Source: Nereocystis luetkeana (Eukaryota > Sar > Phaeophyceae > Laminariales > Laminariaceae). From it: a DNA stretch of 64,000 nucleotides. The DNA lies in NCBI GenBank assembly GCA_031213475.1, contig JARUPZ010000002.1, forward strand, positions 2,914,001 to 2,978,000, written 5' to 3'. Positions 1 through 63,315 of this stretch are shown here, in pieces (the stretch's first letter is position 1; each line of letters opens with the position of its first letter). The translations under genes and the position numbers were made by a program. A model generated the notes under the pieces. That model was given only the letters and a program-made list of their open reading frames with translations, made no database searches and was not told the origin of the DNA.

Positions 1-2542
1 GTTCTTATTCGGCACGGGGCGGCGTCCGCCGTTACGATAGGTGGGACCTCCATTACCGCACATTCTGTCGCGTCGAGCTTGCTCATGAAGAGGGTCCTCG
101 CCGCGGAAGCCAGGCGTTCGCTGGATCGGGCGATAGCGGGTCGAACCCGTGACGGCTGTTTTCATGTCTCCCAAGCTGTGATTGACGACAAACTGTTCAA
201 CGATTCGACTCACAACGTGAAAGGGACCGGCGAGGGGGAAACGTTGGAGGCCACCGACGGCAACGGAAAAGAAGAGAAAACGCGTCGGATGGAGGCGTGG
301 GTATCAACCTTGGCCGAAGCGGAGCTGGCCGCGACACGCACGAGCAACTTTCTTGTCGACGAGAAGACGAGTCTTCACCTAGCCGCGGCCGCCGGCCTAC
401 CGGACGCCGTGAAGGACCTCCTCGAGCGAGGGGGAGGAGACATCAACGTTAAAGGGGCAGACGAGCCAGCCGCACTCGGAATGACGACGACTTGCTCAGA
501 GCGACCAGCATGGGCGTCCTCGTGGTCATCGCCAAACGGTGAACCCGGGGAGATTCATCATATACCAGCTCACTGCGCGGATGATCACCAAGTCTTGCGA
601 CGGGGTTCCACCCTCGCGGTTTTGCCGAAGACGGACACGAACGGTTGGTCTCCATTGCACGCCTGCTGTGCTGAAACCTCACCGCAGCACTACAGCTGCG
701 CGGTTGCGTTGCTGGCGTCGAAGATGGATCCGAACGCAAGGACCAACACCGGGAGAACCCCCTTGCACGCAGCTGCTTGTGCTTCGGGTACGGGGCTCCG
801 GAGTGGGGTAAGTGTTTCATGCGAATGATGGCGCCAACAAGCAAGCTCTCGTAGTGCCCATACCATTATTCGAGAAGACGCGTTGCGACCACAAGCACGA
901 ACATGGTGGGTGTTGCAGTATCGTCAGAAGGCGCCCCTTATGAAGCGTTCCTCGCCCCACCCTAGCCTGCCTTTCTACCGGTTCATAAAGACCAGCAGAA
1001 GCCCAAACGACAGCGATATACGAGTATAGAATGGCACCGGTGGTTGATGAACTTCCCACTGCGAATAGGTCCGCCTCGATGTTACTGTCTCTGCTAAAGG
1101 CAACGTCTCGAGCACCTTCCCTCTCTCTCGCTCTGCTTCTCCTTCGTCTTAAGGTTTATGACGCGATCCCCTTGCTCGTTAGCCACGGAGCCGACATAGA
1201 GGCACAAGACAGCGATGGGCTCCGACCGGTGCATTTCGCCGCGAAGGCTGGCCAACACATCGCGCTTCTAGCCCTTCTTACGGCCGGCGCAGACCCTCAC
1301 CCCCTGACACGGCGAGGGTGGAACGCTTTGCACTACTCGATGGCGGGGGGGCACGTCGATGCCACCCGGCTGCTGACGTACTGGGATTCCGATTGCGGAT
1401 CTCTTGGCATCCAGAAGAATAGCGCCGGTGCTCTGCCGATGGACCTGTGCAGGTGCGGCACTCGGCGCGTCGATTTTGCTGTTTTGTCTATTACGGGGGA
1501 CCATAGTTAATAGGACCTATGGTATACATAAAAACCTATATATTTGACCATTTTTACTAACAACATTTGGTCCTATTAACTATGGTCCTCCGTAATAGAT
1601 TCATTCCGAATTTTTGCGTGCTAGGAGCCGCTGAAGCAGTACCAATTCACAGCCTTGGAATATGACTACTCCACAGGAGACCCACCGTTGTGTGCACTCG
1701 CACACCAGCTGAGGACCCAATCAACGCCCACAATGCAGGAAGCGATGTAAAATGCCTTTGACTCTCCTGATATCCTACTATTGTTTGCTGTCCCTCTTGC
1801 CAGGGCGGATGAAATACGCTCGGCGACGCCCACAATCTGGGAAGCGGCAGCTCTGGGGCTGTCGGAGAAAGTCACCCACGCGTGCCTGGAGAGCTCGCGT
1901 TCTGCGAAAAACAGGACTGGCAAGCCATGGGCATGCCCCGGAGCGAACAGCAAGACACCGGGGCTCGGGTTCACGCCCCTACACGCTTGCGTCGCCGGCC
2001 TCGTCGCGACCACGAAAGGGTTAGACGTAAGCCGCCCGTGCTCTCCACCGCAACCGCGTTGGAGCCGCGAAGGGGGGGCTAGGTTTCCCCCTCGGCCTTC
2101 CTTCTATGCCCGAATATCGCGCAAGCGGGGCAGGACTTCGCATCGCCGCGACCGAAATATGATTCCAAGAAAACTTGCGGGCGCCACTGGTCAGCGTGGT
2201 GACTATCTTGGGGTCTGCCGGACCCTACTTCTCGCCCTGTCGGATGTCGACGCGCTTGACGCTCGGTGTAGAACCCCTCTGGCCTTGGCTGCGGCCTCGG
2301 GGAACTTGGAGGCCGTTGAGATACTGCTTGAAGCGGGGGCGGACCCACGCGCCAGGGACACCGACGGCAACACCCCGACGCACTTTGCTCTGGCGTACGC
2401 GAACGCGGAGATTGCGGCAGTACTAGCGAAAAACGGGGCGGACATAGAAATTTGTAACAAGGACGGCAATAGTCCCCAGGACGTAGCGGGACTCTGCGCT
2501 GACCTTGCGCCCTGTGAGGGTGACACGTCAGGCTGCGGGTGA
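1..2542 (+). CDS. Ankyrin-repeat protein, 3' part of gene
   Basis: Reading is open from base 1, so the gene starts upstream of the window. Proposed exons are 1-807, 1154-1452, 1804-2026 and 2195-2542 (TGA), joined in phases 0, 2 and 0; donors are GTAAGT, GTGCGG and GTAAGC. Ankyrin units are visible in every exon: TSLHLAAAAGLPDAVKDLL and GWSPLHAC in the first, GADIEAQDSDGLRPVHFAAK and GWNALHYSMAGGHVDATRLL in the second, GFTPLHACVAG in the third, and TPLALAAASGNLEAVEILLE and NTPTHFALAYANAEIAAVL in the last. Such repeats bind other proteins; no other domain is seen, so the partner and role are unknown. Residues from about 465 to 640 of the window look less ankyrin-like and may hide another small intron. 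A 105-bp inverted-repeat element lies in the second intron. Family is sure, exact first exon less so. Confidence 0.8.
1491..1595. mobile_element. MITE family 1, copy a (TTACGGGGGACC ends, TA flanks)
   Basis: Inverted-repeat element with ends TTACGGGGGACCATAG and the near-complementary CTATGGTCCTCCGTAA, flanked on both sides by TA. Inside are AAAAACCTATATAT and GGTCCTATTAACTATGG. It has no coding capacity. TA target duplication and size suggest a Tc1/mariner-type MITE (inference). It lies in an intron of the ankyrin gene. Confidence 0.8.
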
Positions 2543-36685: not shown

Positions 36686-39600
36686 ATGGCGTTCCTTCAC
36701 CGAGCAAGCTCGGCAACAACTCAGCAGCTGCAGCAGCGGCGGCGGCCACAATGGAGGCGGCATCTTCTCTCTGGTCCGATACTAGTCGCGCTGACGACTC
36801 TTGACCTGTCGTCGGCGTCACTTTGGGCAGCCGCACCAGGTCCACCGCAAACAGCGAGAGTCTCCATCCAGCATGTGACCTCAACTCCGTCGGCCTTTGC
36901 CGGACGCTTGGCGGTTGGTGTCCGAGGCGGCGCGACTCAAAGCGACGAGGATGGGGAGGATGAAGGCGACACCCACGAGGTACGGGGTCCGCCGTGCAAA
37001 ATAGCAGAGGGTAGACTGGACTGCCGCTTTCTCGTTGAGATGGGCGGTGCGATCATCGACAATGATCCTCGTGCATATGTGACCTTCATAGTCGAGTTGT
37101 ACTGTGAGTGTTTCGAACGAGTACGAGTGAAGGTTAGGGTTACAGCCTTTCAGCTTTAGACGTGAGACGTTGAAGGAACCAAGCTTGCGCGACACCTTGG
37201 GCACACCAAAGATGAAACGTTTGCGGTGTGGCGCCTTGGCGCGACGAGATGAGGCCCACAGCGACCGGAAACACCCTGGTGGCCTCGTGACCACACCAAC
37301 CAAGTACCTGGTATGCCTTTGCCTTATCCATACTGCTGTATTGGATACCAGATACCTGGTATTATAGTCAACATGACACATGATAAGGCAACACGGGATC
37401 ACACCCTCTAATCCTTGGTGTGCATGACTACACAGAAGCTTGATTGAGCTTCGTTAAACCCGCCGTGGCTCGTACCGCCCAACGTGCCCCATCATTCCAT
37501 GTGCATCGCATTTTTATACCACAAAGCTCCCTGCCTCGTTCATCCGCGAAATCAGGCCGCCGCGTCGACGGTGGGAGCGGGCGGCCTGGCCGAAACGGTC
37601 AAGACACTGCTCTCGAAGCTGTTGGACGTGGTCGGGACCTTGCTCGGGAACAAGGAGGGCGGCGGTGGAGGCGGCGGCGGCTTGAAGGCCAGGGCCAAAC
37701 CTTCCAAGGCAAAGAGGAAGAAGACCTCTGGTGCTGGTTTCAAGGAGGTTTTCGAAGCGAAGTATGGCAAGGGGTGAGAAGATTGTTCCTGTACTCGCAG
37801 GAGCAACCGAGTAATATCGAACCCAGTGTAGCCCGTGCCTCCACCGCTGCGTTCTATTTGCTGCAGCAGCGGCACGACGCACTTCGGCGTGCTGGGGTCT
37901 TCCCACTGTGGGGAGGGAGGGCCAGAGGGTGGGGGGTTGGAGTATCCGCACTAAAATGGGCAGAACTCGTAACGTCCGTGCACGCGTGCGTTATTTTGGT
38001 GGAGCATTCGTCTTTTTCCGCGTAACTCCCCGGCGAAAATAACCTTGTTCGGCTTGTGCGCCCGGGTAGCTTTTGGCGGTCCGTCGCAGTGGTCGAAATG
38101 GTCTCAAGCAAACTAAACTCGTAGCTGACTTTGTTCTTGCTAAGTCCCCGCACTGTGTTTCTGCGATTCCGCTTTGTCGTTGTGGCCATCCCGGAAGTCA
38201 CCCCGACTTCAACGAGAAATCGTTTGGCGAGGCAACAGAACATGCGTGGGAGCGCAACCGCCTTTGCCTGGTTTATATCGCGGCTGACCGGGGCCGTGGC
38301 AGCAAGGAGGCTAAAGTGGATGACGCGATCTGCAAGGCCTTCGCGGATCCGAAGGTGACGATGCGACAATGAAATTCGCTCAATTCCATGGCGGCCTTAA
38401 GCCTTGTTTTTTGTGAGCATGACGTGCCTTAGGCGCTGTAGAGCGGTGTTTATAAATACACGTTCGTTATGCTATCGCTGTGTGCTGCTCATCGTTTGCC
38501 GCCACCAAAGCTGAAACATCGGAGGTTTACTCTGAGGAGCGTGCGCCGTTCAGGTGGAGATGGTTTCACTGTGCTATTCGCGTGCATCCGCGTCTGCGGG
38601 TGCAAACGTACTTGACGCCTGAAGCCTTTATCCCTTTGCAACTGCGCCCACGTTTCGGGCCCAAAATAGTTGGTATTAGTGGGGATACGTTTCGCAGCTG
38701 GTTTCAAGGGTTCACTTAGACAGCGTCACCGATCTCGAACCGGACTCGCGCGAAGTTCAACCCCGACATAAGCATATATCTCCTGCCTTCTCGCCTTGTG
38801 TTCCTTCGGCGTCCAGGTGACTGCTTTCGTGGACTCGAACTTTGTGGTGTGGGTCCCTGGAGGCAAGAGCTCCGCTCAGCGAGCGGCGGCTTCCGCCGCG
38901 GCGGCAAAACGAGTGGGCGCACGATCCTTGCCTTTCCTTGGGGTGGTGAACAGCGCCTCAGTGACGGACAAAATGTCTTCGGAACAGAAGCTGAAGCGGT
39001 CGACGGTGGCGCTGCACCACTGCAACCCGCCGCCAACACCAGCCCAGGTTCGATTCGTGGGGGGGCGAGAGGGTGGAAAGGGTCGGCTGTTGTGCAACTA
39101 TCTTGTTTGTGCTGCGTTGGGGGTGTCTGCTGGTTGCCCGGCGGTGTTTCGTTGCGCTGTGCAGGCGTTGAAGTGACCGCACGCTTTTGAACGCTCTCGA
39201 GTAGTGACGGAAGGAAGAACTTTCGATGTAAGCGGTTTACGGTGCATCCTGAGCACGAGCCACGGCGCTGTCTGGGTGTGTGTTTGCTTTGTCGAGACGC
39301 CTTGACCACGTGTCCGTGGTTGGGATGCATGTGTGTTTGTTTGTCGAAGGGCCTTGATTGAGTGTCGGTGAGTGAGGGGTCTCGTTTTTGGCTCCCTCTC
39401 CGTTTCCTGTGAATTGCTCTCTCCGACCAAGGTTGGTGCGCGGAGGGAAGGCGAGCAATATGCGCTCGTAATTGGCGTACATATCGGGCTGGGGCGTAGG
39501 TTACAGACTATTGCAGGGGACCGTAGTAAATACTCCGAGTAGGACCAAACGTTGTTAGTAAAAATAGGGAAACACATAGTTTTTTTTGTGTACCGTAGGT

Positions 39601-42001
39601 CCTATTAACTATGGTCCCCCGTAATAGAATGCTCAACTTTATATGCAGTTGTTCGCAAAAGAATGGCACACATAGTACCGAAGGCCTGAACAGCTAACCT
39701 CTCTCGACCCGCCAGAAAATGAAGTGCGCACTCAGCAACGGGCATCCTTTTTTACGTGAGGGCTGAAATAACGACCGTGCGTATATACGAGTAGCGTGTG
39801 TTGGCGCCTTGTGACGCTCATGGTGTGACTTTGCCCCGCTTGTTTTGCTTCAGATGGTCAGCTGGATGACTCGTGTGTTGGAGCTCAAGAAGGAGCTTCT
39901 GGAGACCGAGCTCGTCGAGCAGCAGTAAGTTGACACCACACGCACCACGTTGAGCGGGCATCGACCATATTCACGTGATTCCGACCCCTTGCTCACTCCG
40001 CGGCATCGTGTTATTGGTTCGTACACGGGCGCGGCGTTTCGAGGGATGCCCCGCCGTCTTTGTTTTGAGATGCCGCTCTTATTTATGATGCAGGTTGTGC
40101 TTGCTTCCGTGGCGTGGATCTGGGAAGTGGGGGCAGCCGGGGTCGTGTCAAGAAATTACGGTCGTGGGACACATTTAATGTCTTCAACTTGAGTCATTGT
40201 CTACTGGAGTGCGTCTGCACAGCTTTTCACAGATGTCTCTTGCCCCTGCCCCCTACCCCCCTTCTCGCCCAGACCACATGTGTCTAACCGTGGCGACACC
40301 GACCCTCCGGTGCATAAAAGTGAAGCACTCCACCACACGCCAACATCCGCAATATTTCCCAACAACCCACGTCAACATTTGCGGCATTTCCCAACCCATG
40401 CCAACATCTGCAGCATTTCTCAATCCCGCTCGCGCCGCCGAACACTCCTGGAATCCTCGTACGTATTACAGGAGACTGAAAGACGAAATAACCATCCACA
40501 CGGAGCGAGTGGAGGGCTACTCGAAGTCTCTCAAGGACGACGCACAGCGGGAGGTGCTGGAAAGGGAGGAAGAGGCGGAGCGGGCTCGTCTCGAGGAGGA
40601 AGAGAGGAAGGCGCAGGAGATCAGGGATGCAAAGGAGCGGGAAGACACCGAGCGGTGAGAGTTGGTTGCGATGCGATATGTGCCCAGTTTCCCATGGGGC
40701 TACGAGGAAGTGCTTTTTTACCCGGATTCCTGTGTACGTGCGGTTGCGGGGTTTCAACGTGTCCCGTGTGCGTTCTTCTTGAAACCGCCGGTACTCCGGC
40801 TCTGGTTTTGAGGTATCACTACGCCGCTGCGCGTGAGCGTTAAGCCGCTGGCGGTGCTGACCATCGGCTGTCGGTGCTTCGAGCCAGAACGAAAGCTGCA
40901 TTCGTACACAAGCACGACAACCTCCAACGATAACCCCCGACGCCATACTACTTTAGCCGTGTACCTGGTACAGCGTTTTAGTCGTATGCACCCATGACTT
41001 CGCCCTTGCTTTTTCCGACCACTTGTATGGAACAGGCGAGAACGAAAGGCAGCCGAGCTTGGGCAAGAGCCGCCAGAGTCTGCGCTCAAGGGGGACGGCG
41101 TGGCCGCGACGCTTATGCTCCGGCTTGCCGACGGATCGCGGGTGCGCCGGCGATTCCTGCGGTCTGATACCATGGGCAAGGTCCTCGACTGGGCCGACGT
41201 CCAGGGGGTGGACCTGGAGTCCCAGAGGCTGTCCTCCACGTTCCCTAAGGTGAGGTCGCGAACGTTGTCGCGTTATCCAGTTGCTGATGATTTGCGTGTG
41301 GAGGACACCAACACGGTCCTCTGTAGTGGGCATGTGTGCAGCAGCAGCAACAGCAGCGGCGGCGGCAGCAACAGGTAGCAGCGATAGCAGGTAGAGGCTC
41401 AGCGAGGGGCCTCGACAAAGTCATGGCTATTTACTCCTTCAGAAATGCGCCCATCGGTTTTGAGGACAAACGTCTTGGAATTTTTGTAGCACAGTTTTTG
41501 CAGTAGCAACAGGGTTGAAGCGCTGTCGGCAGACTGGTTCACCGTCGGCGCACACTCCTACCCGCAAGGTAAGACGCAGAAAGACACAACCGCGTGAGAG
41601 GTCTGCCCACGCGCCAGCAGTAACGCGTCCGCTGTCAGGGTATGACACCAGAGAGCGTACTACCCCTTTTCGATGATACTGTTTGCTCCGTTCCCGAAAC
41701 ACGCACGCCCTCTGCAGCACCCGGCCCTACATAAGAGAGGGTTTCGAGGCCCGCAGCCGGCTAACCGGCACGTCCCTCTTTCCCACTGCCGCTAATCCGC
41801 AACTGCCTCGGCCCTCCGCAGGTGTCGTTCTCGTATCCTAACGATGCGGCGGTCACGATCGAGGAGACCGAGCTAGGCAAGCAGACGCTGCTCTCTGTGG
41901 AGCTGAAACCCACGGAGGTGGCGCCTATACCGGGGACAGATGCGACAACAGATCCAGTTGCAGCGGGGACTCTAGAAGAGGGGGAGAAGAGCGAGTTGTA
42001 G
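36686..42001 (+). CDS. UAS-UBX domain protein, FAF2/UBXD8 type, with hydrophobic leader
   Basis: Eight exons: 36686-36979, 37556-37773, 38198-38354, 38817-39047, 39854-39924, 40472-40654, 41036-41249 and 41822-42001; 515 aa with every junction in frame. Leader: LLSGPILVALTTLDLSSASL about residues 27-46, then SAFAGRLAVG about 68-77. Residues 108-126 form an amphipathic or hydrophobic helix (LAETVKTLLSKLLDVVGTLL). FKEVFEAKYGKGHPDFNEKS introduces a UAS thioredoxin-like domain (about 160-300), followed by a charged coiled coil (about 325-395) and a UBX domain (LMLRLADGSRVRRRF, then STFPK|VSFSYPND). The family recruits Cdc48/p97 to ER membranes in ERAD. UBA is absent, and the Cdc48-binding FPR turn reads FPK. 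Family is sure; plastid-compartment location is inference. Confidence 0.92.
39511..39624. mobile_element. MITE family 1, copy c (inverted)
   Basis: Left end TTGCAGGGGACCGTAGTAAA (drifted), right end ACTATGGTCCCCCGTAA, TA on both sides. The interior reads as the reverse complement of copies a and b (TTTTTTTTGTGTACCGTAGG). It sits in intron 4 of the UBX gene. Confidence 0.75.
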
Positions 42002-56337: not shown

Positions 56338-56723
56338 GTTTAGCCCACACTCACACAAAAAATGGGTTTCAAGTTATTTCACCACACACGTGAGGCACCA
56401 CAGCTACTACTGATCGGGATGCCCGGTCGTGGGCTTCCTCGGGTAGTGCCGGCGCGCTTACTGCGGAGGGTAGCAGTAGGTTTCAGAAATCTCCTTCATT
56501 TGGAGTTAACATGATAAGTAGGCGTGATAAAGGAGGGGAAGATATGGTGTCTCCCCTGTACTTGTTTGAGCGAGGGTGTACGGGCGAGTACCAGCGAAAT
56601 ATTGCGCGGAGTGTGCCTGTTTTGCCCGACGTTTGCGTGTGCCTGGATTTGCCTTGTGTTCTGCTTGTTTGGCAGGTGAAACTAGACTTCTCGCTGCGCG
56701 CGCCCCTCCCCAGCACTTCAACG
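56338..56723. promoter_or_regulatory. 386-bp gap between divergent genes (SUKH gene and Acinus)
   Basis: Start codons at 56337 (-) and 56724 (+) face away from each other. A possible acceptor (TTGGCAG|GTGAAAC) at about 56675 hints at a 5' untranslated intron of Acinus. No clear TATA box is seen. Confidence 0.4.
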
Positions 56724-57536
56724 ATGGACGATGCGGCGCCCACCCTGTCCATCGAGGACATAAAATCACTCACGGTGCCGAAGCTCAAGGCAGAGCTATC
56801 CAGGCTGAATCAACCCGTTTCGGGCTTGAAACGCAAGGCCCAATTGGTCGACGCACTCACCGTGAGTTCCTTTCGGAAGTGGGGCCAAAGATCTTTGACT
56901 CACTATTCAATTTTTCACGTAGTATCGTCATCGCGAGTTTTGGCTCAGCGCTTTGACTCACAGTTTTGGCAGGTTGATGGGGCTACTGGTACTCCCTCGT
57001 CTGCATGGTGTTTAGTTTTGGCTCGTTGCTTCCGTGCTCTGCTGTCGATCTTCTGTCATCACCGCACGGAAAAGCTGGTCGCTGCTGTGGATTACGAGAC
57101 CGAATTTTCTCCCCAATCCGCCAACAATGCAGGCCTACCGAAAAGCAGTCGCGTTTGTGTCGGTAACAATTTACTAACAATAGAAAAGGCGGTCACTCTC
57201 TCAGGAAACCAGGAAAAGACTTGCAAGGGCAAGAACAAGAAGAAATCTAAGGTATCTCGTACTAGGTACATACTGGTACTGGCGAAAATTTTCGACCCCC
57301 ATCCTCGTCGACCCGGTATCTCCCGTCGCCTTCTTTCGCGCCAGGCCTATCTGGCAAAGCAACAGCTGGAACATCAGCACCTGGACCAGGAGGACGGGCA
57401 AGGGGAGCCACAAGAAAACCCTTGGACGTCTCCCGCAGCTAGCCCAGAACAAGAGCAACAGCAAGACGAAGGAGAAGAAGTAGAAGCGGCTCTAGCCGAC
57501 AGCGGTGAGGCTGCTGCTGCTGCTGCCGCCGCTACC

Positions 57537-57572
<36 letters not shown>

Positions 57573-60500
57573 GCAGCGGCGGCCGTCGACACAATGACGG
57601 CTCCAACAGCAGCACAATCGGATGAGCCCATCCCGGAAATGAGTAACAGTTACCAAGAGGAATCATTCTCTCAGGAGGTAGACCACCAGCAAGAGGAGCC
57701 TGGGCCCGTGCAAGAGCAAGCCGACGACGAGTCTACCGCCGCGGCAACGGAGAAGGAGCCGGAGACCATGCCGGAGGCCCTGCCGGAGGCTATGCCTGAG
57801 ACGTTTGCGGATGAAGCGATGGCCGTTGGTGGAGGCCCACAGGTGCGGGATGAGGAGAGACCGCTGTTGATCGCTGCTGTATACGTCCGCTGCATATACT
57901 CTGTACTCATCATAGACTACTGCTACTGTTGTGTAGGGTACGGTATGCCTGTTGTTCGTTGGATTGTGTCCTTTCGTTGCATGTTCCACTGGGAAGGTAA
58001 TAATATCTTCGTATAGTGTTTACTATTAATAGTAATACCTGGTAGGTACACTACTGCTGTTGCTGTCAGTACTTGCACGAGTAAGGTGCTACATGTGTAC
58101 CTGGTATGTACGTACGGCAGCCTACAGAGTAGGTCTACTTTCTGTGTACGAAGTGATGCTGCGTTTATTTTGTTGTTGTTGTTGTTGTTGTTGTGCTCAC
58201 ATTAACTCACAATACAATGCACGGTCCGTGGTCGCAGGACAGGCTCCAATAACTCTGGAGTGGAAGAAATACCTCAAGTAAAACAGAGGCAAAAAACAAA
58301 AAACAAGCATACGCACTCCACCACTGCGGACACCAGGGAAGCAAAAAGGAGACTATTAATAGCAGACAAAAACCTAAAAAAAAGATGATGCGAAGCAAAA
58401 AAACCAAACAAAACAAAAACAGAGGCAGATAGCAAAACGCAAAAAAGGCAAAACGGACCATACTAACAAAGACACAAAGAGGTACAAACGGGAATGAAAG
58501 AAAAATGAAAAATAAATATATATATATATATATTGCTCATCCCATTCATTGTCTTCGCACATCTTCTTCTCTCTCTCCTTCCAACTCGTAACTCAGATCC
58601 GGGGTCACATACGTAGCAGGCTCTTCTCCCCCCTTCCCGCTACGGTATATATGTGTACCACTGGGTCTGGGCTGTTGTTGTGGTAAATATGCAGTTGGTA
58701 CGCGCGGGAACGTCGCGATGATGGTCTAAGCGATCGTGAGATTCGACGCTCTCTACATAAATCCATCCATCCCCGATCCCCGTGTAGCCTGTACGAGTGG
58801 CAGGCTCACAGGCGGTCCATTTTTCCAAGGTATACCAGGATACCAGGTTCCAGGTATTTTTCTTATTTTTATCCTGCCACCGCCTTCTCTCGGCGATTCC
58901 GGAGGAGTGAAGGGATGGCTGAATGTACATACTGTTGCTGTAAGCGATCAAGTCACCGGTGCAGTACACCTTCAAAGAAAGCTCATGGTGCAAACGGAGG
59001 CAGCACGCAGGGCACCTTTCAAAATCGAACTCGACGTGGTATTGTTTGCTTCTGTATCATTATCAACGAAATTGCGAGAATGAGAATAAGTATTGATACA
59101 GCAGTATTACATATTAATAGTAGCAATTTAGATATAGAGCCAGCTCTGTTGATTCTATGATAGAATAAATACTTGGTACCGGTATATAACAGCACGTATA
59201 CCGGTATATTCACACGTGCGAGTAAGATGAAAGAGCGACCCTTTTTTTTCACGTATCGGCATTCGATTATCGTATGATTCGTGCAAGAGCAAGAGCATAA
59301 AAGGTGCCCTTTTTTCTCTTTTTTTTTTTCGATCGCTTGCCGCATGCGCAGCGTGAAACGTATCCACCTGTCTTCAGGGACGGCCGGTGCATCGCTGCCA
59401 TACTTACAAACAATGCTGCGAGTCGTCTCTTCACCCCCCCCCCGCGGCCCCCGCCCAGCACCATCCTGCCGCGATCCCGCCCTTGCGCGGGGGGAGATCA
59501 ACCACAGATACCGTTTGAATTTGAAAAATGTATCTTTTGTGTGGAGTTTAGTCAAGATACCGTATTCACCGCCCTCCCCAACGAAATCCGACCCTCAGGC
59601 CGAGCCCATGGATGTGGCCGACAGCGTAAGCAGCCCCCCCGATGCGCCGTCGCAGCATGAGAATCAGCCGACCACCCCCGGGACGGCTGGCAAGACCCCC
59701 CGCAAAAGCCGCAAGAGGACGGCCAGGACGGACGAGGACGGCGACAACTCAGCTGGCGGCGGCGGTAGCGGTGAACATGCTGCCGACCGTGCGGATGTCG
59801 ACGGAGCAAGCCCGGAACAGCGGAAGACGAAACATGCACGGAGGTCGTCGTCTAGCAAGGGGAAGAAGGCTGCTGCTGCGGCGGCGGCGGCTGCTGAAGC
59901 TGCGGAAGCGGAAGCAGCTCAGGCAGCGACAGCGGCGGAAGGAGAGGCGGAGGGAGCGGAGGGAGCGGAGGGAGCGGAGGGAGCGGAGGAAGGAGTGGAG
60001 GCAGAGGAGGGGGGGAGGGGCGCCCAGATGGACGATCAGTCCGCGCCCGACAAAGGGGAGGACGAGGGTAGCGTCAAGGTGGGCGAGAAAGCGGCGGCCG
60101 GCGACCCGATGGACGAAGCAAATGTGGCCGCGCCGTCCTCGGAGCCTGACCGCGCCATAAGCACTGCTCCCGCCGCCGCTGCGACGGGCGTAGAAGAGAG
60201 GTCGGGTCCTCGTGCTACTGCTGCTGACGCTGCTGCTAACGATGATGGTACTGCTGCTGCTGATGGTGATGAGGCTGCCGCTGCTGCGGCCACTGAGAGC
60301 ATGGAGGGAGGGGGCGACGGGGAGGGTGAGGGCGACGACAGTGGGGTCGAGGAGCCGGTGACGATTCGGGTGGACAATTTTGTGCGGCCGTTCACTGCCC
60401 CGCAAGCCAAGAAGGTGAGAGCGGGAAGCCTGTGTTTTTTGTTTCGTTTCTGTCCTGTCCTTGCTTCGTGGCCTTGCGCGGTGTGGATGCTGCTGCTGCT

Positions 60501-63315
60501 GCTGCTCGCAACTTTATTCCGTTTTTCGTTCGCGCACTCTGGACTCGGGACAGTATCATCCCGTAGTATTGCAGTTGTAGTTATCGCTCCAATCTACTCA
60601 CCTATTTACCTACGAGGTGATACGAAAGTATTTTGTAATTCATGTCTAGAGTCTAGAGGCTGTATACTGACCGACCGTATGACCCCCCTTGATGTTATTC
60701 GCATACGAGAAGGATATCCAACGCCAGGTGTTGTTTCGCGTACCCTGCTCTTTTTCGTGTCGGATTTTGAGCGTACTTTGGCAGCAGCACGATGAAAAAT
60801 CATGAAAAGGTCCAAGTGTAGTAGAGAGGAGAACGCCAACAACACCCGTGGACGCTAATTCTTGTCCTGCTTTTTTGGGCCACAAACCGAAACGCCAAAC
60901 AGCTCCTGGAGGAGAAGGCGGACGCCCCGGTTCTCGAGGGTGGGTTCTGGATGGACAGCATCAAGACGCACTGCTACGCCACCTTCGGCAGCATGGCGGC
61001 CGCCGAGAGGGCAATAGCCGCGCTGCAGGACCTGCAGTGGCCCGTTCAGAGCTTCAAGCGGCTCGAGGCGAAGATGGGCGACATGTCTGCGGAGCAGGTG
61101 GGTGGCGTTTTTATTGCGTAAGCACTCACCGTACGTATTCACATTTGTGTGCGTGCGCGCCGTACACCGCGCGCAGCACCCACGGTTTGGGGGGATAAAC
61201 TTCTTGGAATTGATACATTTTCAGGATTAAACCCGCTTGGTTGTAACGGCTGGGATGTGTGGTTGGGTCGTGCTGAGATAGATGTACCAGTATGGCAGTA
61301 GCAGCGGGTGCGCGTCCGCCGGTTGAGGGGGATGTCGCAGTAATTTGGGCGTGATCAGTCGGCGCAGTGTCGAGGGGGGAAAAGGCAAGACATGAGTTGC
61401 CGCGGGGGTGCGATTGTCTCTCGCGCCTGACTTGAACGGGTTTTGGTGGGTTTCGCCGTGTGCCAGCGGGCGCGAGAGGGGTGCAGCAGCAGGCAATGCG
61501 AACGTGTTTTTTGTCGTCGAGTGGACGCGAACGCTGAGCTACGAAGTTCTCCGTCTCCCGTTTTGTGCATCTCTATACTATATCTCTGTCTTTCCTTCGC
61601 TCTCTCTCGCCCACCCCCCCACTCTCCCCCAATATCTCCCCCTCTCTACCCCCGCGTCGCCATCGCCGTCCGTGTCTGTGCCCCCCACCCCCCGGCCCCG
61701 CGCACCACCCCATCCGCAATTGGCAACAACTTGTCGGGCGCGGGGACGATCAGGCAAGGGGGCGGGACGACGCCAAGCGGGGGATTCGACCTTTCTCGAA
61801 GCGCCTCGGGCCTCGCGTTTCGTCCCCAGCAGCCACGGCAACGAAATCCCTCCGGTCTCCCGCCGAAGCCAGTGCTAACGGCTCTTCCCACGTCACCGCT
61901 CCGACGGCCAGCGGTGGCACCGGCACGCTGGCTGCCGCGGCGGCGGCGGCGGCCGCCGCAGGCCGTCTTTCGGGGGCGGGTGTGCGAGGGAGGGGAGCGG
62001 TGCATGCACCGGGAGTTTCTGGTCCTAAAGGAGGCGTGTCGGCGGCCCAGGTAGAAGCCGAGGTGGCGGGGGGCGGGGACGGTGAGGAAGAGCCGCCGAT
62101 CATTCTTGACGACATCTTCAGGAAGACGGACGCAAAGCCGTCGCTGTACTGGCTGCCGCTCTCGGAGGAAGAGGTGAGCCAGGCGGGGTGGGGTCTGTTT
62201 AGGCTGTCTGCTGCGGGCCCCTGCTGTGGGAAGTTTGAAAACGGGCAGCCTCTTCTGCCTGGGCTTGGGGTTGCTGGGACACGCTCTGTAATTGTTTTCA
62301 CTCGTTTTTATGACACACGGTCAAAGTGCGGCCCGGCCCCATCTCGCGTAATGGTTGGGCACGCCCCGGGGGCCTCCTCGTCCACCCAAAACTGCAGACA
62401 CCCAGGCGGTCGGTCGTGGTTCTGGTTCGCTGATGAACGCTGAAGCTGGACCTGGCCAGTTATTTCGCTCGTATGTACTGGTACGAGACAGTGGTAAATC
62501 TCGCTCTCTCGCTCTCTGTGGGCCTCCCTCGCTACATTGTCGGAGTTTGACCGGTGCGTGGTGTGTCGCGTGTATTCCTTGCCGAGATCGCTCGATGTTG
62601 GGGGGTGGAAGCCACAATTTTTACAGTGGGTCGTTTGTTCGCCACCGCTGCCCTACAGCCTAGGCCCTCGAACAGGAAACGACGCTGTCTTAACAGCATA
62701 GGCGCACAAGCGAGGAACCATCCAGTGAGAAACCGAGAGACTCAGGTTTTAGGGGGCGGCTAAGAAAAGTTGGTCAAGAGAACGCCTCCATATACCGGTA
62801 TATGCTAAGAATTTGCTCTGCGGCTATATGCAGTGGTTCTACACTAAAACCCTACGTGCCGGTGTATGACAACATATATGGACGAAATTGGCGTCACATT
62901 AAGGTTTCACCCTTGCTCAGAGTAAACGTTTCTTGTTGCCGGACCCATACAGTAGTTAGGGCGGTAATTCGGAAGCGTTTTGTGCTCACGGCGAACACAC
63001 AAAACTAAAACCCTCTTGAAACGGCCCTGACCCCTGCGGCCATGCCATGCGCTCGCAACCTCGCAGGTCGGGGAGCGGAAAAAGAAGATGAAGGCGGACG
63101 GCGTGGGACCAAGAACAACCCCCATGCCGGTCGACCACATCGAGGCGTCCAGTGGAAGCGCGCGTGGTGGCGGCGGAGGAGGCGGTGGCGGGTGGGGGGG
63201 AGTGCAGGACAGGAGGGGATACGGGGGCGGTGGGGGTGGCGGTGGCTCCTATCGCCACGGCGGGTATGGGGGGCAGCACTACGGCCGGGTTGGGGCAGGA
63301 GGCAGGCGTCGATAG
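56724..63315 (+). CDS. ACIN1: Acinus, EJC-linked splicing factor (ASAP complex)
   Basis: Six exons, all introns phase 0: 56724-56861, 57345-57842, 59599-60414, 60903-61097, 61754-62173 and 63067-63315; 771 aa. SAP domain in the first exon (LTVPKLKAELSRLNQPVSGL), a DNA/RNA-binding helix pair. Then come acidic, Gln- and poly-Ala-rich linkers with a basic patch (KTPRKSRKRT). The RRM-like fold spans exons 3-4: VTIRVDNFVRPFTAPQAKK| and GGFWMDSIKTHCYATFGSMA, LQDLQWPVQSFK. Exon 5 ends with the RNPS1/SAP18-binding motif PPIILDDIFRKTDAKPSLYW followed by LPLSEEE. In animals and plants Acinus joins RNPS1 and SAP18 on the exon junction complex in the nucleus. The tail is an RGG/GY-rich stretch ending GGRRR rather than the RS tail of animals. 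The start of exon 5 is the least certain edge. Confidence 0.95.
57510..57590 (+). repeat. GCT microsatellite coding for poly-Ala in Acinus
   Basis: Runs of GCTGCTGCT interrupted by GCC/ACC give about 26 mostly Ala residues in exon 2. Confidence 0.85.
58181..58385. repeat. 205-bp dispersed repeat family 7, copy b
   Basis: The second copy of the repeat at 51052-51256, in the same orientation, inside intron 2 of Acinus, again next to a GTTGTTGTT run. Differences are a few point changes and short indels. Confidence 0.85.

Follow-up and report, generated by a model that had tools for sequence, protein, structure and literature searches.

The window analysed here is a stretch of 64,000 nucleotides from the brown alga Nereocystis luetkeana (G000:C2:2914001-2978000), within a searched genome of 465 Mb. 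Positions 36686-42001 of its forward strand hold one gene of eight exons, encoding 515 residues, with GT/AG borders and a continuous phase throughout. The protein consists, in order, of an N-terminal leader, a thioredoxin-like UAS domain, a long helix, and a UBX domain. It is probably a brown-algal sUBX, that is, a periplastid component of SELMA (the symbiont-specific ERAD-like machinery, ERAD being endoplasmic-reticulum-associated degradation), with its location, its binding to Cdc48, and its role in import all predicted from sequence. This reading is preferred because the protein carries a signal peptide and an acid-free stretch ending in VRGGA, because a distinct host paralogue exists in the genome, and because an sUBX is listed for the SELMA of Phaeodactylum. 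The features of the gene are the following (all on the + strand).

36686..36979, +, exon 1: start codon, signal peptide, transit-peptide-like stretch, VRGGA and acidic run (donor GAG/gtacgg placed by orthologues)
36686..36817, +, predicted signal peptide, residues 1-44, best cut between SSA and SLW (score 8.0, hydropathy)
36818..36925, +, transit-peptide-like stretch, residues 45-80, with 0 acidic, 3 basic and 7 Ser/Thr residues in 36
36890..36904, +, SAFAG, residues 69-73, the motif of the original prediction, Phe not conserved
36920..36934, +, VRGGA, residues 79-83, end of the leader, acidic run next
37556..37773, +, exon 2, coding for a helix, a Gly/Lys-rich linker and the first part of the UAS
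37739..39919, +, UAS (thioredoxin-like) domain, about residues 160-322, across exons 2-5
38198..38354, +, exon 3 (UAS)
38817..39047, +, exon 4 (UAS)
39015..39035, +, HHCNPPP, residues 290-296, close to the end of UAS
39854..39924, +, exon 5 (end of UAS, start of the long helix)
40472..40654, +, exon 6 (long helix)
41036..41249, +, exon 7 (end of the helix, first part of UBX, FPK)
41103..41893, +, UBX domain, residues 408-480, exons 7-8 (fold matches made on the Undaria orthologue)
41241..41249, +, FPK at the site of the FPR turn that docks on Cdc48, final codons of exon 7
41822..42001, +, exon 8 and stop codon

At the level of sequence, the locus is confirmed as a real gene. Exon 1 can be assigned to it because a comparable leader is present in independent gene models of Undaria (P0001) and Ectocarpus (P0003, P0004); an extension of this exon to 37078 was ruled out, as its 33 extra residues are absent from the orthologues. 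The best sequence match in the PDB for the stretch from UAS to UBX is FAF1, which is also among the best fold matches, and the best PDB match of the family profile is the UBX domain of UBXN8 (Rep-8; 1.2e-11). A first structure model, built on 11 sequences, had a poor UBX part and was replaced by a model built on 45. An Rfam scan of the window gave 0 matches at gathering scores. The eight-exon model, the domain matches, and the leaders of the orthologues thus bear out the original prediction of a leader-bearing UAS-UBX protein at this position.

An initial protein search returned eight matches, and a profile made from six sequences returned 12, adding Choristocarpus, a short Ascophyllum protein, P0011, and the FAF1-type protein P0012; both searches scored only the approximately 8,000 candidates sharing most words with the query, such that close relatives may be missed. 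Seven of the ten close orthologues (P0001-P0010) have brown-algal names, and P0002, P0006, and P0007 are without a species name. When the UAS of P0011 served as the query, 38 proteins came back, P0011 itself among them, most without a name; the readable names were Chaetoceros, Pseudo-nitzschia, and Extubocellulus, and none of the named diatoms was recognised as Phaeodactylum. Both leader and body recur in the close orthologues, and the body is shared by the wider family, named diatoms included. A tree of 19 rows joins the window protein to Undaria (100/96) and then to the other brown-algal orthologues (98/97). Its closest named relatives among the sequences compared are brown algae. The family stands apart from the host gene described below (C19) and from P0012 (100/99), although both outgroups are long-branched and the program warns of false joins. 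To this extent the tree supports the original prediction: the window protein groups with proteins of other plastid-bearing stramenopiles and not with the host gene, with these two outgroups as the sole comparison.

Motifs were counted in 45 of 49 proteins (P0010, short; P0012, FAF1 type; P0028, a near copy of P0027; and P0029, a fragment, were omitted). The motif HH[CFG]NPP is present in 45/45, a figure that is partly built in for the 36 members outside the brown-algal group, since the query region held the motif; it is absent from P0012 and from the reading of C19. A strict metal site at HHCNPPP was considered and rejected, the Cys being Phe in P0009 and Gly in P0047.

Signal-peptide cuts were scored with a von Heijne matrix, with a pass score of 3.5 and 300 shuffles as the control. 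The best cut of the window protein falls after residue 44 (score 8.0, equalled by 13/300 shuffles), and its best hydrophobic stretch, residues 27-50, lies inside the leader. The 25 residues counted after RGG hold 8 acidic and 0 basic residues. Among 47 family members (P0002, P0012, and P0029 were excluded beforehand), 35 combine a score of at least 3.5 with an RxG motif; in these, the stretch from cut to motif holds 125 acidic and 223 basic residues of 1864, and the 25 residues after the motif of each hold 227 acidic and 57 basic residues in total.

The residue that follows the cut (+1) bears on the compartment. In these algae, stromal transit peptides usually begin with Phe and occasionally with Tyr, Trp, or Leu (PMC3774753, PMC4329603); periplastid proteins are without Phe at +1, and in diatoms the absence of Phe suffices to hold them in that compartment (PMC5756292). 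The soluble parts of SELMA reside in the periplastid compartment, where targeting peptides are also without this Phe (PMC5756292, PMC4329603). The window protein does not have the +1 Phe of the ASAFAP stromal mark; its +1 residue is Ser45, and by the +1 rule it would therefore be periplastid. The original prediction had leaned on SAFAG as an ASAFAP-type plastid motif, a step that fails twice. First, SAFAG starts at residue 69, with 24 residues between the cut and the motif, and its Phe (residue 71) is matched by Phe in 0/10 close orthologues (the aligned residue is Leu in Undaria and P0002; the others show a different letter or a gap). Second, the logic was inverted, since a Phe at +1 marks the stroma and periplastid targeting peptides are without it (PMC5756292, PMC4329603). 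In P0009, APFGG lies near that protein's own cut, with Phe at +3. The SELMA candidacy itself stands on the leader, the host paralogue, and the listed sUBX; the SAFAG argument drops out.

UBX matches were found at three places in the genome: C19, the window gene, and C32. Read by eye, the exons of C19 give a UBA-like piece and a hydrophobic segment LSVIVGLPFRLLG, then a UAS and a coil, and lastly a UBX with NFPRR at its end. The joined reading, also made by eye and with its first exon missing, matches UBX at 3.5e-10 and the FAF1-type UAS at 2.1e-7, both above cut-off; Pfam finds no UBA in this reading without the first exon, and the UBA-like call was made by eye only. As judged from these exons, C19 is a separate host gene of the UBXD8/FAF2 type with FPR. 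The UBA reported as missing from the window protein indeed gives no match there at E up to 1, a test that is not strong, given that Pfam finds none in the C19 reading either.

The genome also gives matches to other proteins of the ERAD or SELMA kind. Nine derlin matches lie on C30, C12, C4, C20, and two small contigs, the latter two with a score and profile span identical to those of the C20 match. In the C4 derlin, LRGGA (L011 890-904) and a long acidic run occupy an N-terminal extension ahead of the Der1 domain and resemble the end of the leader of the window gene; LRGGA plus acidic run may possibly be a shared mark of periplastid proteins, C4 being the one case. No signal peptide was found for the C4 derlin, in which the hydrophobic letters before LRGGA lie within a CTG-type repeat, possibly an intron. 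There are five Ufd1 matches, three of them over cut-off, and the weak ones on C2 and C14 show no clear leader by eye. At G000:C32:4046274-4048286 (L003, L006, L017), Ufd1-type and UBX matches lie approximately 1.5 kb apart on the same strand and possibly form a single gene.

Under the sUBX reading, the signal peptide would direct the protein to the lumen of the endoplasmic reticulum (ER), the basic, acid-free stretch would then guide it, much as a transit peptide does, through the second outermost plastid membrane, and, with no aromatic residue at +1, the protein would be retained in the periplastid compartment, where its leader may be trimmed near VRGGA. The UBX end would then dock on the symbiont Cdc48, weakly or in an altered manner, with the UAS head on its long helix binding the translocon or an incoming preprotein. 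Published work offers points of contact with this scheme: sUBX of Phaeodactylum tricornutum is listed as symbiont-only, with matches in two red algae and no match in either of two Nannochloropsis species (PMC6610115 Table 2), a UBX protein is reported at the diatom periplastid import site (PMC5756292, citing a 2012 paper), and Der1 homologues are described in a complex with which UBX homologues may interact (PMC5487736).

Several observations weigh against this reading. FPR is the turn that docks UBX domains onto Cdc48 (see the title of structure 3qca). The original remark that FPK replaces it in the window protein was right but understated: FPR occurs in 0/45 family members. At this site the nine close proteins counted have FPK (4), MPK (2), LPK (2), or LLK (1), and the 36 members outside the brown-algal group have TMNG-like loops without even the FP pair; the fold of a Cdc48 adaptor is therefore retained, and its best-known contact is not. 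As for the leader, shuffled N-termini match the nine leader-bearing close orthologues in 18 (P0010) to 161 (P0003) of 300 cases, so composition explains part of the signal-peptide score. Moreover, 12/47 members (P0008 from Discosporangium, P0013, P0030, P0031, P0034, P0035, P0036, P0038, P0039, P0044, P0046, and P0048) fail the combined leader criterion, several of them with seemingly incomplete ends. Finally, in the wider family 11/37 members can be cut, with a score of at least 3.5, before F (5), L (4), W (1), or Y (1), four of them at the best cut and seven at the second best (e.g., VEA before FRPN and AHS before WKKP; P0029 and P0012 not counted). With +1 residues mixed in this way, the +1 rule gives no single compartment for the whole family, which is the main uncertainty about its location.

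A broader, speculative account is possible but rather unlikely: a stramenopile family may have moved a UAS-UBX Cdc48 adaptor into the plastid pathway, dropped FPR, and fixed an HHxNPP surface on the thioredoxin-like head, its members now acting as a non-Cdc48 import factor (e.g., a receptor for preproteins) or, in members whose leader begins with Phe, Leu, or Trp, as a stromal UBX-fold protein. Of the rivals to the sUBX reading, a stromal location for the window protein itself is unlikely; in that case the leader would comprise a complete signal peptide and transit peptide, with the UBX fold reused where Cdc48 is not expected. The cuttable members of the wider family and the loss of FPR fit such a protein, and the acidic run after the leader also suits the mature stromal N-termini of Thalassiosira (PMC3774753). 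However, among the close members scored, the window included, only 1/10 has a +1 residue of this kind (P0006, Leu), the best cut of the window protein gives Ser, and the UBX protein reported in such a setting is periplastid (PMC5756292). It is less likely again that the protein is periplastid but no Cdc48 adaptor, its UAS and UBX forming a scaffold or a chaperone that acts through HHxNPP, as the combination of HH[CFG]NPP in all 45 members with FPR in none would suggest. An ER or lipid-droplet paralogue of UBXD8, anchored by the hydrophobic stretch near its N-terminus, would share the UBXD8/FAF2 body plan but is improbable, given that there is neither a UBA match nor a hairpin-like hydrophobic segment ahead of the UAS (the helix there averages 1.39 over 15 residues, with charged residues inside), that a UBXD8/FAF2-type gene with FPR already exists in the genome, and that an anchor has no need of an acid-free stretch with an RGG end.

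We retain the sUBX reading. The literature consulted on SELMA covers diatoms, apicomplexans, cryptophytes, haptophytes, and dinoflagellates. No named brown-algal sUBX was found in that literature, with most subscription journals outside the coverage, which is no proof of absence. The brown-algal candidate now comes with a full exon model and a family alignment extending to diatoms. Two testable oddities stand out: the members seen no longer have the usual turn for docking on Cdc48, and the predicted compartment varies by lineage with the leader. Both bear on the coupling between import motor and cargo and on the reliability of the +1 Phe rule.

Elsewhere in the window, open frames at 56394-62443 (+) resemble by eye an Acinus gene, with SAP-like SIEDIKSLTVPKLKAELSRL and RRM-like DNFVRPFTAPQ and RKTDAKPSLYWLPLSEEE; an open frame at 1751-2542 (+) has, by eye, ankyrin-like repeats. 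The word TACCTGGTA occurs at 16 places in the window and its reverse complement TACCAGGTA at 13 (e.g., 37305, 37353, 40962, 42276; raw counts). It lies in introns and flanks, and by eye also at the C19 loci, and may mark a dispersed repeat.

Compared with known systems, the window protein shares with UBXN8 (Rep-8) the UBX domain, the best PDB match of the family profile, but UBXN8 is an ER-membrane protein without a UAS. FAF1 differs in having UBA and ubiquitin-like domains (PF14555 and PF00240 in P0012) and no plastid leader. The host ER ERAD adaptor UBXD8/FAF2 arranges UAS, long helix, and UBX as the window protein does; in contrast to it, the window protein has a cleavable-type leader, FPK for FPR, and HHxNPP, and is without a UBA match or a hairpin. 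With the sUBX of P. tricornutum, likened by description and not by sequence, the common element is the UBX domain, and there the sUBX is listed as symbiont-only beside the host ERAD (PMC6610115 Table 2).

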